Source of the DNA: Planctomycetota bacterium
GTDB lineage: Bacteria > Planctomycetota > Brocadiia > Brocadiales > Brocadiaceae
Direction of reading: 5' to 3'
DNA: 64,000 nucleotides
NCBI GenBank assembly: GCA_023261485.1
Contig: JAHFOY010000005.1
Location: forward strand, 1-64,000
Below are positions 10,569 through 49,499 of this stretch, piece by piece; the first letter of the stretch is position 1, and every line of letters begins with the position of its first letter. Position numbers and translations under genes: made by a program. The notes under the pieces are model-generated. The model made no database searches. It was not told the origin of the DNA and was given only the letters and a program-made list of their open reading frames with translations.

Positions 10569-10754
10569 ATGCAGACAGCCAAACAAGAGGTGCACGAGAT
10601 TCTCAACCGTTTGCCAGAGGATTGTTCTTTAGAGGATATTCAGTATCACCTTTATGTCCTTCAAAAGATTGAATGTGGTCTAAAAGATGCAGAAGGGTGA
10701 GTTTATACGCAGGAAGAAGTTGAGAAGATGATGGCAAAATGGCTCGAAAAATAA
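10569..10754 (+). pseudogene. Antitoxin remnant interrupted by an in-frame TGA
   Basis: The ATG at 10569 follows a GAGGAG ribosome site. The frame reads MQTAKQEVHEILNRLPEDCS, then DIQYHLYVLQKIECGLKDAEG, the pattern of small RelE/ParE-partner antitoxins. A TGA at 10698-10700 stops it. The same frame then continues VYTQEEVEKMMAKWLEK to a TAA at 10752. The stop sits where this family usually has arginine, so a single CGA-to-TGA change explains it. Without it the product would be 61 aa. The adjacent toxin gene is also truncated, so the module is judged decayed. Confidence 0.7.
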
Positions 10755-30145: not shown

Positions 30146-31315
30146 TTATTGTGCTATGGCAAAACTGGTCTCAGGTTTTCTACTCAGGACATGATCTGTT
30201 AATGTCTGGATAGCTCGTGTCTTTGCATCTATACCGGTATGACTGTATTTCTGCAACATGCCTAAACTCGAATGTCCTGTCATCCCTTGTACCACTACCG
30301 CACCAATACCCAACTCACCCTGAAGTAAACTTGCAAATGTATGTCTCAGGTTATGGAAGGTAAAGTCTAAGATGCCTAAACCCTTAAAAAGCTGGCTAAA
30401 ATGGCTGCTGTATTCAGAAACAACAGCATTTATGATTTCTCTTGTCTCGAATACCCTGTCATTACTTGGATTGACTTCTTTCCACTGCAACAGTTCCCTT
30501 GATAGATAATCCGACATTGGTATTAATACCAGCTTCCCAGTCTTATGACTGGACGTTATTATCTTTCTGGTGAAGTCTATATCATGCCATGATAGCCCTA
30601 ACACCCCGCCAAGACGTAACCCTGTAAAGAGTCCTACCAACACCATAAGACGGTCTTTCCCTTGCAGCTTATCAAGCAATAAGGCTATTTCATCACCGCT
30701 CAATATACGGTCTTTGGTCTGTGTTATTTTTAACCGTTTTACCTCTTTGCCTGGGTTCTTGTCGATAATACCCGCCTTTATAGCAGTGATAAATACGTGC
30801 GACAATACGTCAACGTCTATATTGATACTGCTGTCTTTAACCCCGCTTGATTTACGGTCAATCCTGTACCGCTCTATAAGAAACGGTGTAATCTTATCAA
30901 GTGGATAATCCCCCAAGAATTTTACCAGCGCATTTATAGCCCTTTGCTTCATTGCAAGCGTGTTACCATTCGCCCCTTCACATAGGGACAGGTACGTCTT
31001 GGAATATACTGCCAAAGTGGGTATCTGTTTCTTTCTTGGCAATTGCAATTTTCCCCGCTCCCTGTCACCGATAAGCACCATTAATCTTTTCATGGCATCT
31101 TTACGGCTTCTAATATCCCTGAAGCTAACCGACACCCACCGCTTCCTATCATCAAAGAGTTCCACTAACCACCGCCCGCACCGTTTGACCTCTCCGGTAT
31201 CTTTTACAGGTAAATTCACCGGACAGTAATCCCCACGCTTACCGTCACAATTGATATTCTGTCCTTTGTCATCTCTGCATTGCTCTGGAAAATACTTTTT
31301 CCATCTTACCGCCAT
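30146..31315 (-). CDS. Tyrosine recombinase / phage integrase
   Basis: This 389-aa site-specific recombinase has a C-terminal catalytic domain with arginine in TGLRLGGVLGLSWHDID, the HxxR box in FHNLRHTFASLL, histidine in MTGHSSLGMLQKYSHTG and the nucleophile tyrosine in QKYSH. A core-binding SAM-like domain lies at about 115-200. The N-terminal ~100 residues contain a cysteine pattern (CRDDKGQNINCDGKRGDYCP) and arm-binding character. It is adjacent to attL, the usual position, and should catalyse integration and excision of the element. Confidence 0.95.
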   Translation of the reverse strand: MAVRWKKYFPEQCRDDKGQNINCDGKRGDYCPVNLPVKDTGEVKRCGRWLVELFDDRKRWVSVSFRDIRSRKDAMKRLMVLIGDRERGKLQLPRKKQIPTLAVYSKTYLSLCEGANGNTLAMKQRAINALVKFLGDYPLDKITPFLIERYRIDRKSSGVKDSSINIDVDVLSHVFITAIKAGIIDKNPGKEVKRLKITQTKDRILSGDEIALLLDKLQGKDRLMVLVGLFTGLRLGGVLGLSWHDIDFTRKIITSSHKTGKLVLIPMSDYLSRELLQWKEVNPSNDRVFETREIINAVVSEYSSHFSQLFKGLGILDFTFHNLRHTFASLLQGELGIGAVVVQGMTGHSSLGMLQKYSHTGIDAKTRAIQTLTDHVLSRKPETSFAIAQ

Positions 31316-45002: not shown

Positions 45003-46478
45003 ACATTACTTTGTTAAAAAGTGCTTGTAAAAAAATATTTTTAAGTCGTAAGTTGAATCGGACACAACTTATGACTTTTCAATGCTTTGCGACTAATATT
45101 TACTCTTGATTTATCACTTTATTCCTGCTATGAATTGCACTTGTGAACTTTTTGATCAACCAACAACAGGAGCAAAGGATTTGAGTATTTTTGGCGCAAA
45201 CATCCCTCTGTTAAATAAGTTTCTGAAAAATTTCGCCTCTTGTTTTAGCAAAAAACAAATGGCCATGTTTACCCTGGTCATCTATGCCTTGTTCAAAGAC
45301 TACAAAAGAACCTCCCTTGATGTAATGGCAAAAGCCACTCATACCGATTATCAGAAGTTTCAATACTTCTTCTCAGATTCAAAATGGGATATCCAGACCA
45401 TCAAACGCACAAGACTGGAAATCATTCAAAAACAAAGAACTACTGCTCCCACGAAAGACGGACTTCTCGCCATCGATGACACAAGCTGCCCGAAACCCTT
45501 TGCAAAGAAGACCGAGGGCGCAAAGTGGCAATATTGCGGACCACTCAAAAGGAAAGAGGTCTGCAATGTCGGTGTCGGCGCTGCTTTCGTCTCACCGTCG
45601 AAGCATTTTCCCGTCGACATAATTCCCTACCTTCCTGCCTGCCAGTGAGTTTCCCAGAGGAAAAAACAACCCTCTGTTCAAAGACAAAATACAAATCGCC
45701 CTGGAACTCTTTGCTGCCTGCTCAAAAACCATTGATTTCTCTGGCGTTGTCTTCGACTCATGGTATGCGACAACACGCTTCCTCACCCACATTCACAAGG
45801 AAGGCAAAATCTTCTATTCCGAAATAAAATCTAACAGAAACATCTTCATGCGCCATCCCGTAAAGAAAAAGAATTGTCTCGTCAAACCAGATGAGCTCGT
45901 GACCCTCATCAAAAAGCAGTATTGCGATAAAATCAAATACGTTCAACTCAAAACTACGGATGGCTCTGAAGTTTCCCATAAAACCTATTCGTTCGAGGCC
46001 AAGCTGAAAGATTGTGAAGTTCCCATCAAGTTTGTTGTCATTTTGGGTAAGTGGAATAAGGATGACGACAATAGCTACCACATCCTCATTACCAACAAAC
46101 TCAATTCCTCTGCCAAAATGGTTATTACCAACTATCTGCTTCGTTGGGGTATTGAACACTGTTTTAAGGAACTCAAAGATACCTTTTACTTTGACCACTA
46201 CCAGGTCAGACATATCAACAAGATTGATAGATACTGGAACCTCTGTCTTGTTGCATGGACTCTCACCTACTGGATCAAACAAAATGCCTATCTTACTAAA
46301 ATCCTTGAAACGAAACCCACCACCTTCAACGAAATCAAACAGACGGTCAATGCCATACTCGAATTCGCCTCTACCAACGCCTTATCAAAGAACGAGAATC
46401 TTGCTGATGGCTATTTTAAAATTAAATCTAAACGACTTAAGAAAAAATGCGCCGCTTAAATTTTTAACAAAGTAATGT
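45003..46478 (+). mobile_element. IS701-like insertion sequence, 1476 bp, frameshifted
   Basis: Perfect 18-bp terminal inverted repeats: ACATTACTTTGTTAAAAA (45003-45020) and its complement at 46461-46478. Both ends are flanked by ATATA (44998-45002 and 46479-46483), a possible 5-bp target duplication in AT-rich DNA. One transposase gene fills the element and is broken by a 4-bp duplication. Family assignment is by transposase sequence. Confidence 0.85.
45130..46459 (+). pseudogene. Transposase (DDE, IS701/IS4-like), frameshifted
   Basis: The reading frame starts MNCTCELFDQPTTGAKDLS and carries the first catalytic aspartate region LLAIDDTSCPKPFAKK. At 45636-45643 TGCC is repeated (TGCCTGCC); the extra four bases end the frame at 45648. 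In another frame it continues EFPRGKNNPLFKDKIQIALE, then the second aspartate GVVFDSWYATTRF and the glutamate WGIEHCFKELKD, ending KKKCAA. Removing one TGCC restores about 440 continuous residues, so the disruption is recent or a sequencing artefact. ATG 45130 is preferred over an upstream TTG. Confidence 0.85.
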
Positions 46479-46510: not shown

Positions 46511-46689
46511 TAGTGTCTGAACGAAAACTATCCAAGATGTTATTTCGAGATCTTCGTTCTGTTCAGGGCAGATTCCGCGAGAAATCCTTGCTCCGATCGG
46601 CTTTCTTGTCATTCCGAACGGGGTGAGGAATCTTAAGATTTCTCCCTTCTGTCGAAAGGACAAAAGCTTGTGTTTTTGTTCAGACACTA
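46511..46689. mobile_element. MITE, 179 bp, Tc1/mariner-like ends
   Basis: Terminal inverted repeats of 18 bp with one mismatch: TAGTGTCTGAACGAAAAC (46511-46528) and, inverted, 46672-46689. The outermost TA on each side would fit a TA target duplication as in IS630/Tc1 elements. No coding capacity. The interior holds a TGTCATTCCGAACGGGGTGA repeat unit (from 46607). Confidence 0.7.
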
Positions 46690-47035
46690 AATACGGATAT
46701 TTTAAAATGTAGGTGTTTAAATTTTTAAATTCCTATTGCGCTGTGCATGTCTGTGAAAATCCGTGTCCTGATTTAAATCAGTTTTTTAGAAAATATCAGA
46801 ATTTGACTTCAAAATCAAGGAATATGTCCTGTCGCTTGAATGCCATAGAACACCAACTTCAAGGAAGTCTAAGGTGACCAAATGATAACGAAGATTTGTG
46901 AGAAGTCTAAGACGAAAAGTGGGAAATGTTAAAATGCCGCGAAGGTTTCCAAATGTGATTTTTAGTTTGAAAGGTTTTCTATAACCTCATACTCTGAACC
47001 GAAATTAACGGAATCAAATAGGCCTCTTTCCATAT
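46690..47035. other. Intergenic stretch with no gene
   Basis: No credible ORF or known RNA. It includes a fragment CTGTGAAAATCCGTGTC-like (about 46751) that resembles common intergenic repeats. If the attC site at 47036 marks a cassette array, this would be where a further cassette lay, but nothing cassette-like is seen. Confidence 0.4.
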
Positions 47036-47102
47036 GGGTAACGTTTCGCTTAACCGGCGACCCCCTTTAAGTGGGGCGTCCGTGTTGAAGCAGATGTTAG
47101 GT
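47036..47102 (-). other. Integron attC-like recombination site
   Basis: Read on the minus strand: R'' box ACCTAAC (47102-47096), spacer ATCT, L'' arm GCTTCAACACGGACG (47091-47077), an 18-nt hairpin stem-loop, L' arm CGCCGGTTAAGC (47059-47048), spacer GAAAC and R' core GTTACCC (47042-47036). L'' and L' pair with three extra bases (C, A, A) bulging from L'', the extrahelical-base signature of folded attC sites. The TAA stop of the adjacent gene lies in R'', as is usual for integron cassettes. R' deviates from GTTRRRY after GTTA. Confidence 0.7.
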
Positions 47103-47780
47103 TTCGAGCTTAATCTCACCGGTGACCTTGGTAATGCGAAGCGCGAGAGCAAAGGCTAGGAGCATCGGACTGAATATTATCAGCGCGTCTTTCGAGCCTT
47201 CGGGATTAGCACCTCTTTGTAACGTTTGCAAAATATCCAAACCAATCTTGTAGTTCTCTATATCCCTAGACAGCAGATGAAAATACTCGAGGAGCATCTC
47301 GTCGGTCACTTTTGACATGGCACTTGCGATGTCAATTACCAAGTCCGGAAATTCCGGACGCGGATCGTGAGGCAACTGAACCAGCCGTTCTCTGAACCAT
47401 GTGCATGCAAAGTCGTACTCCCTCTGGATTTCCTCTAAGTCAGCAGGCGAGTATTCAGAACGGATAAATTTTCGGCAGATTGCAGCCCCAGTGCCGAATT
47501 CAATGTCTTGTCGAACGGAAACATACATGCCGTACTGACGCTCGACGTGTTGCTGAAGAAGATTACGAGATAAGAGCGTCTTGGCGTCGATGGCCATCCC
47601 GATAAGTCCGAGGGTCGCAAAACCAAGCCATACATATTCCGTTTTCTTCCAAGCAACTTTGCTGAGCTTAAGCCACCTTACCAACAAAAGATCAAGCACA
47701 ATCAGAAAAATGACAAAAAACATGAATATTGCCCACGGGTGAAGCAATATCTTAAGGGGTAGAGACAGGCGATCCGTCAT
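47097..47780 (-). CDS. Hypothetical membrane protein, probable integron cassette gene
   Basis: From ATG 47780 (MTDRLSLPLKILLHPWAIFM) the product is 227 aa. It has two N-terminal membrane helices (about 14-36 and 50-68), a long helical soluble region (DIEFGTGAAICRKFIRSEYS, YFHLLSRDIENYKIGLDIL) and a final hydrophobic segment (DALIIFSPMLLAFALALRIT). No family was recognised. The stop codon is inside an attC-like site. A longer frame from 47837 lacks support. Upstream sequence to 47946 has no second attC. Confidence 0.65.
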   Translation of the reverse strand: MTDRLSLPLKILLHPWAIFMFFVIFLIVLDLLLVRWLKLSKVAWKKTEYVWLGFATLGLIGMAIDAKTLLSRNLLQQHVERQYGMYVSVRQDIEFGTGAAICRKFIRSEYSPADLEEIQREYDFACTWFRERLVQLPHDPRPEFPDLVIDIASAMSKVTDEMLLEYFHLLSRDIENYKIGLDILQTLQRGANPEGSKDALIIFSPMLLAFALALRITKVTGEIKLET

Positions 47781-47946
47781 GGTTTTGCAAGCCCAACAGG
47801 AAACCGAACTATTAAGTATACAGAAATAATTCCACAATAATTCTTGTATTTTACAAAAACTTCGCTTTTTATTTTATATCAAAATGCAATATAGACATCA
47901 AGTTGTTATCTATTTTTGTAAAAGGCTAACTTGTAAAAATATGCAT

Positions 47947-49293
47947 TTACGTTTTCAAAAAAATATATCTCACAATAAACGCCGCGGAGACCAGGTAGAA
48001 TGCCCAGTGTATCTGGCGTGCCTTGCCCGTAACGAGTTTTAATATGGAATACGAGATGAATCCAAATGCCAGACCTTCTGTAATGCTCAGCGAGAAAGGC
48101 ATGATAGCAAGGGTGAGAAATGAAGGGAGTGCTTCCGTAGGATCCTCCCAGTTTATTTTTCGTACATTAAAAATCATCATGCTCCCCACAACTATGAGGG
48201 CTGGGGCAATGACAGGATAGAGATAGTTCCCATGGGCAGTTTGATAACCACCGCCAATCATTTTTATCAGCGGATAAAATAATAAGGATAAAAGGAGGAG
48301 AAAGGCCGTGATAACATTGGATAATCCCGTCCTGCCGCCCGCCTGAATCCCCGCCGAGCTTTCGATATAACTGGTAATGGTAGAAGTCCCTAACAGCGCG
48401 CCCGCAACCGTACCAAGCGCATCCGAGAGCAGGATTTGTTTTACCCGAGGAATTTTGCCATTCTTGTAAAATCTCCCTTGTTCGCTGACTCCCACGACTG
48501 TGCCTACAGTATCAAAGACATCAAGGAAGAACAAAACAAATATAACTGAGATAAAACCCGGCTCTGTAAATATCTTGACTGGATCACATTTCAGCAGCGT
48601 TGGGTCAATCGAAGGAGGCGTACTAATAATACCGTGATACTTGACTATACCCAAGGGAATTCCAATAAGCGCTGTTGCAATAATTCCGTATAAAATAGCC
48701 CCTCGTATCTTTAAGGCAATCATCGCTCCGATAGCCATTGCACCAAATAAGGAAAGCCATACCTCGGGATACTTGGGATTCCCTAAACCAACGAGTGTTC
48801 CAGGTGTATCAATAATAATCCCACCATATTCAAACCCTACCAGTGCGATTAAAAGCCCAATCCCCACCGCAATCGCATTCTTTAATGAATCAGGTATAAT
48901 GGATATTATTAACTCGCGCAGCCCAAAAAATGATAATATGACGAACAAAGTGCCTGATATGAGATTTGCACCAAGGGCTACCTGCCACGGATAACCCATA
49001 CCACCAGCCGCAATGGGGCCACACACCGTAAAGGCAAAATAAAAGTTGTGCCCCATGGCGGGTCCCAAAGCAATAGGGTAATTGGCAAGAAAGGCCATGA
49101 AGAGGCATGCTACGGCGCTTGCAATGCAGGTGGCAACCATGACCGACCCAAAATCCATTCCGCAACTGGAAAGCACGGCGGGCTGGACAAAGATGATATA
49201 CGACATCGTCAGGAAGGTGGTTGTCCCTGCGATAGCTTCTGTGGCAATAGTGGTGTTGTTTTCCTTTAGTTTAAAGATTCTTTCGAGTATCAT
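47947..49293 (-). CDS. NCS2-family nucleobase permease (AzgA/GhxP-like)
   Basis: This 448-aa transporter has about 12-14 membrane helices. Family motifs: EAIAGTTTFLTMSYIIFVQP near the start, NYPIALGPAMGHNFYFAFTV (the helix-3 region of AzgA-type proteins), FLDVFDTVGTVVGVSEQGRF and SALLGTSTITSYIESSAGI-like GALLGTSTITSYIESSAGIQ. It likely takes up guanine, hypoxanthine or adenine by proton symport. It is a single-gene unit on the minus strand. Confidence 0.92.
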   Translation of the reverse strand: MILERIFKLKENNTTIATEAIAGTTTFLTMSYIIFVQPAVLSSCGMDFGSVMVATCIASAVACLFMAFLANYPIALGPAMGHNFYFAFTVCGPIAAGGMGYPWQVALGANLISGTLFVILSFFGLRELIISIIPDSLKNAIAVGIGLLIALVGFEYGGIIIDTPGTLVGLGNPKYPEVWLSLFGAMAIGAMIALKIRGAILYGIIATALIGIPLGIVKYHGIISTPPSIDPTLLKCDPVKIFTEPGFISVIFVLFFLDVFDTVGTVVGVSEQGRFYKNGKIPRVKQILLSDALGTVAGALLGTSTITSYIESSAGIQAGGRTGLSNVITAFLLLLSLLFYPLIKMIGGGYQTAHGNYLYPVIAPALIVVGSMMIFNVRKINWEDPTEALPSFLTLAIMPFSLSITEGLAFGFISYSILKLVTGKARQIHWAFYLVSAAFIVRYIFLKT

Positions 49294-49364
49294 AGTTGCC
49301 GTTGGCTATCAGCAGTTAGGAGATAGAAAATGGATGAAATTTTCACCTGTAATCGTCATTTCGA

Positions 49365-49499
49365 CCCCTTCGTATTTGTCATTCTGAACAAAGTGAAGAA
49401 TCTTTTTTACTCAGACCCTGTCCTGGGTGAAACGAAGGAGTAAACTCCGGGAGAAATCCTGAAGATTCCTCGCTTCGCTCGGAATGACAGCCAAAGGGG
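49365..49499. repeat. MITE-like imperfect palindromic repeat
   Basis: The ends are inversely related: CCCCTT...TGTCATTC (from 49365) and GAATGACAGCCAAAGGGG (to 49499). Inside are TGAAGAATC and GAAGATTCCTCGCTTCGCTC segments. It shares the TGTCATTCYGA unit with the repeats at 10356 and 46607. Confidence 0.6.

Follow-up and report, generated by a model that had tools for sequence, protein, structure and literature searches.

Integrons are usually pictured as a single intI-attI platform followed by an array of cassettes. Departures from this plan have been described in several forms. Single or clustered attC sites without an integron integrase are classed by IntegronFinder as SALIN or CALIN (PMC12690207). 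Lone chromosomal cassettes away from an integrase have been attributed to insertion at attG sites (Loot et al. 2024, Nat Microbiol 9:228), which, as that work is related in PMC12690207 and PMC12901181, are degenerate genomic targets. In the delta-attI-type cassettes of class 1 and class 2 integrons, a partial attI replaces attC inside mobile arrays (PMC12901181). Planctomycete integrons and attC models are also known (PMC2426708, PMC8352920).

The locus described here lies in a 64-kb stretch of DNA (the window) from an uncultured groundwater bacterium. Its genome (G000; 2.79 Mb, 84% complete) belongs to the Brocadiaceae, the anammox family, and shares a genus with G002 and G003; the "anammox-like chromosome" of the first-pass annotation thus holds at the level of the family. 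Taken together, an attC site, a junction matching its R'' box and an adjoining attI-type remnant resolve the locus into an attI remnant, one cassette (47042-47808) and its attC, with no integrase. We read it, with a probability of about 0.82, as a single cassette carrying a small membrane-protein gene that was recombined by IntI into an attI-type site.

In existing terms the feature is a SALIN, though one retaining an attI-type region. It resembles SALIN and CALIN elements in having an attC-bearing cassette without an integrase, in a genome with about 18 attC sites and only truncated intI, and differs in that an attI-type element, one that recurs at many loci, is still present next to the cassette. 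With sedentary chromosomal integrons, such as the array on G000 contig C32, it shares cassette order, attC anatomy and an attI at the 5' junction, but the window site has no intI and one cassette only, and its element and the region beside intI on C32 have different sequences. Like an attG insertion it is a lone chromosomal cassette away from an integrase, but the attI-like element that served as its target is conserved and dispersed. Delta-attI cassettes place additional attI copies inside arrays, and the tandem element-cassette units on G013 contigs C37 and C43 are a counterpart to this; here, however, attI copies of ~100 bp occupy separate chromosomal loci and the attC sites are normal. The attC-cassette call alone is ordinary. 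What is new is the dispersed attI-type element, and a non-exhaustive search of the open-access literature found no description of dispersed integrase-less attI regions in the anammox group. The first-pass annotation had missed the cassette's other junction, the adjoining attI-type element and the spread of that element through the family.

Table 1. Coordinates of the cassette, its recombination sites and the host locus within the window.
Feature	Position	Strand	Basis or remark
attC, 67 bp	47036..47102	-	covariance model R1, template, fold
R'' box ACCTAAC, holds gene's TAA stop	47102-47096	-	
Spacer ATCT, between R'' and L''		-	direct reading
L'' arm GCTT[C]AAC[A]CGG[A]CG	47077-47091	-	extrahelical C47087, A47083, A47079 (gene strand)
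L' arm CGCCGGTTAAGC, past loop	47059-47048	-	
Spacer GAAAC, between L' and R'		-	direct reading
R' box GTTACCC	47042-47036	-	
Cassette gene, 227 aa	47780-47097	-	stop codon inside R''
Integron cassette, 767 bp, crossover G|TTCGGT (T 47808) to crossover G of R' (47042)	47042..47808	-	
Junction box GTTCGGT, attI-side recombination point G|TT	47803..47809	-	conserved end of dispersed element
attI-like element remnant, positions 40-98 of ~100-bp model	47807..47865	-	R2 model E 3.3e-6
Xanthine/uracil-type permease gene, insertion's host locus	47947..49293	-	Pfam PF00860 E 3.3e-33
208-bp tail beyond attC, missing from congeners too	46834..47041	.	

The attC site is genuine. Direct reading confirmed every part that the first-pass annotation had named, including the stop codon within R'', the unpaired spacers, the complementary L'' and L' arms and, within L'', the three extrahelical bases. 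R'' fits RYYYAAC at 4 of 4 positions; the present R' fits GTTRRRY at 2 of 4, because the cassette supplies none of its outer six bases, which are the neighbour's. A covariance model was trained on 19 other attC sites from the order, with the window site excluded. Its sole match in the window was 47036-47102 on the minus strand (42.3 bits, E 1.5e-7; these E-values are rough, from a short calibration, the ranking being unaffected). This is the check on which the earlier 67-bp call had been staked, a significant attC match being what it needed. Across G000 the model returned 18 sites at E < 0.1 on many contigs, among which the window site ranks best, so that the genome-wide look advised earlier yielded some 18 attC sites and intI only as truncated pieces. 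Crude stem-loop scoring discriminated poorly (14.5 for the window versus 14.0 for the best shuffle), and the template and covariance model were therefore used instead. The fixed R''/L''/L'/R' template, which requires the canonical extrahelical positions, gave the site 13.4, whereas the window shuffled 60 times by dinucleotides reached 12.34 at most and a further 525 kb of shuffled related loci held nothing scoring 11 or more. Folded as single-stranded DNA, the bottom strand forms a hairpin, one arm of which carries three bulges (z about -2.3). Rfam searches of the whole window at gathering thresholds gave no match.

A gene of the same orientation lies upstream of the attC, with a short leader, its ATG falling 28 nt past the crossover; as proposed earlier, it stands in cassette order, with the attC downstream on its own strand. 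The span first assigned, 47036-47780, stopped short of the far end of the cassette, which runs on to the crossover at 47808. The product has three likely membrane spans (by eye) and matches no Pfam family above threshold. Its sole type of homologue, on two Caballeronia plasmids, is distant (29% identity over 81%), but its existence supports the open reading frame as real; a template search found no attC within the 6.5-kb neighbourhood of that homologue. No homologues occur in 38 relatives or in 391 other sampled Planctomycetota genomes. Cassette genes commonly lack relatives in related genomes. The cassette has a GC content of 0.48, compared with 0.40-0.44 in the flanks.

When a cassette circularises, the R' box that pairs with R'' is completed by the six bases at the cassette's start. 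Here the cassette's own start, G+TTCGGT, fits GTTRRRY at 3 of 4 positions, and the junction box is complementary to R'' at six of seven positions, not all seven. The sequence immediately 5' of the gene (47807-47842) emerged from a joined-flank search as a repeat dispersed in the family. The window copy of this AT-rich element, which had been excluded from the training of the R2 element model, abuts the 5' side of the cassette gene and keeps 59 bp, of which 36 bp are 100% identical to a copy in G013 (C61). Its intI half is unrecognisable in the window, which counts against the preferred reading. GTTGGGC (47797-47791) had been considered as a cassette start at a chance secondary site; it was dropped because the flank is a dispersed element whose end, GTTCGGT (47809-47803), is the better Watson-Crick match to R''.

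A trans-acting IntI could instead have put the cassette into a plain genomic secondary site (attG), the element next door being incidental. Single cassettes at non-attI sites are known, at least as Loot et al. 2024 is cited in PMC12690207, and the R' box now in place departs from the consensus. This account is nevertheless quite unlikely: the junction is the exact conserved end of a dispersed element at which cassettes are found elsewhere, and in G019 that element neighbours a divergent intI.

The window itself contains no intI. Its tyrosine recombinase match (30485-30748) reached 25 bits against an IntI cut-off of 265, bearing out the first-pass statement that no integron integrase is present and supporting, with the real attC and the right orientation, its reading of a captured cassette or lone attC remnant. 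The intI with an IntI-specific domain that marks a complete integron is thus missing. Elsewhere in G000, too, nothing exceeded the TIGR02249 cut-off, the matches being fragments and Xer-like genes. One of the fragments belongs to a decayed integron on C32 (L009, 10599-12925), where an IntI N-terminus truncated after ~54 residues adjoins a small array. Two attC sites of this array measure 89 and 100 bp, 10599-10668 is a candidate for a third, and a predicted lipoprotein is encoded among its cassettes; a smaller intI scrap lies on C6. Among 39 related genomes, 10 carry an intI above the cut-off.

The element was placed relative to an integrase in G019. On contig C25 it is flanked on one side by a divergent truncated intI (68% identity over 50 aa, E 4e-17) and on the other by a cassette gene. 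After that gene comes AGCTAAC, a 7/7 match to the junction GTTAGCT; the contig stops before this attC is complete. This arrangement, an element at the intI end with G|TTRRRY, identifies the element as the probable attI/promoter region of a Brocadiaceae integron, although the window copy has no intI beside it. A weaker intI scrap holds the corresponding place on G013:C130 (E 0.38). Several observations weigh against the preferred reading of a cassette recombined into an attI-type site. A clear intI neighbour was seen at one element copy only, that in G019, and no copy was found beside the complete intI genes that other members of the family carry (nhmmer E < 0.01). The sequence model found none in G008, G009 and G014, whose intI is intact or nearly so. 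For the element-bearing congeners and G010, G013 and G019, the matches listed include no intact intI, only fragments or XerC/D-like genes. The compared genomes are fragmented metagenome-assembled genomes, so an intact intI could be absent from the assembly alone.

Searches with a sequence model that excluded the window revealed the element as a conserved, AT-rich sequence of ~100 bp present in 3-9 copies per genome in several Brocadiaceae. In the aligned copies its gene-side end reads ...TTATTTCTGTATAMTTAATAG|TTRG..., beyond which a diverging short leader runs to a start codon; TTTCTGTATAMT is near-invariant immediately before the junction. Around 25 strong copies (23 loci), the attC sites within 2 kb were on the element's strand in every case, 17 downstream and 3 upstream, with 0 on the opposite strand, some five of the sites near element copies having been template finds in the covariance-model training set. 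A downstream attC is present at 12 of the 23 loci; about half have no attC within 2 kb, some of these being cut by contig ends. The four variable bases of the junction match those predicted from the downstream R'' at 36 of 52 positions, compared with 26.5 for shuffled pairs (p 0.0011), and at 40 of 56 versus 28.8 (p 7e-5) when G019 is added and one GTT-less copy left out. The match is complete (7/7) in five cases. A junction box that matches the downstream R'' is the expected signature of a circular cassette.

An orthologous locus adjacent to gcvPB (a glycine dehydrogenase subunit gene, named by sequence similarity) is shared by G002, G005, G000 and G013, which have both flanks and the element in common but differ in cargo, over intervals of ~2.2, ~1.1, ~4.4 and ~1.7 kb, respectively. 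In G000 the cargo includes a SIR2-HerA pair (L112, G000:C123, 2541-5368), both genes of which have strong PADLOC matches; the pair lies directly downstream of a short-form element, and no attC was found after it. In G012 the same locus has a scrap of the IntI C-terminus along with four attC sites, and in G004 it is nearly empty and without the element.

These data also bear on whether the element is a mere conserved promoter of a chromosomal regulon, with a real attC lying near it by coincidence. Its AT-richness, the near-invariant TTTCTGTATAMT ahead of the junction and the copies without attC would suit a promoter, as would the homologous cyclase-like genes that follow element copies in G013 and G010. 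A regulon, however, would hardly exchange its downstream genes between species at one orthologous locus, or have junction boxes that track R'' boxes (p 7e-5) and neighbouring attC sites all on one strand and mostly downstream; we regard this explanation as improbable. A third alternative, that an inverted repeat arising by chance or resembling a terminator has been mistaken for an attC, is highly improbable. Folding alone is only moderately unusual on either strand (z -2.3 to -2.4), which would suit it, but the covariance-model and template scores, the stop codon within R'' and an identical three-extrahelical-base arm (TCAACACGGAC) in an attC near a partial intI of a congener (G001:C154) all speak against it.

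Under the preferred reading, IntI would have joined the folded attC bottom strand to the G|TT of the element. Cassette and attC would then have remained fixed, whether intI was afterwards lost or had worked from another part of the genome, and the cassette gene would be expressed from the promoter-like sequence of the element. Service as a promoter for the captured gene is proposed as the reason why the element has outlived intI at many loci. A broader and rather doubtful possibility is a distributed integron, in which many integrase-less attI/promoter elements dock cassettes via IntI supplied in trans, now or formerly; if so, cassettes, possibly including defence operons such as SIR2-HerA, would be captured and expressed at several loci and not in one array.

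Brocadiaceae thus retain attI-type regions at many loci despite a decayed integrase, many with a cassette of their own, and at one orthologous locus the cargo differs in four species. Two questions become open to experiment: whether several attI sites can be populated by an IntI acting in trans, and whether an attI region survives as the promoter of the gene it captured. The anatomy of attC and attI is also extended to an uncultured lineage of the anammox family.

The joined-flank search recovered no empty element at the window locus; the empty locus was found instead via the permease gene. Beside the permease orthologues of four congeners (G002, G003, G005 and G006) the element and cassette are missing. 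In G003 and G005 the permease stop runs directly into sequence homologous to window 46833 and leftwards, and G002 and G006 have another short sequence in between. On the simplest reading, the element, cassette, attC and 208-bp tail would have been gained in the window's lineage. They may have come as a whole integron that then lost intI, as an attI-cassette fragment, or through entry of a cassette into a pre-placed element.

Several minor features were seen among the element copies. Two contigs of G013, C37 (L119) and C43 (L123), each carry two tandem element-cassette-attC units, and the mutual similarity of the sequences upstream of their elements suggests local duplication. The short form of the element (L128 257-338, L112 5492-5545) lacks ~36 bp that are flanked by TTTCTGTA direct repeats, a loss that recombination between the two repeats might have caused. 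On the intI side, the alignment A3 consensus contains a palindrome, TACAGAA-N3-5-TTCTGTA, possibly an intI operator. An apparently rearranged copy on G000:C12 (L209, 3129-3373) is partial and faces away from an opposite-strand attC ~120 bp off. An exact-pattern match in the Bacillota MAG UR.bin48 was rejected as an element, consisting of a 24-mer with no extended element around it.

Other repeats lie near the locus. Inverted repeats of 18 bp (TAGTGTCTGAACGAAAAC and GTTTTTGTTCAGACACTA), spaced 143 bp apart, give window 46511-46689 a MITE-like appearance; related sequence occurs in L219, and the repeats adjoin a DDE transposase gene broken across two frames (45106-46459). Upstream of the permease gene, 49337-49400 is a second dispersed repeat, with congener copies 92-97% identical.
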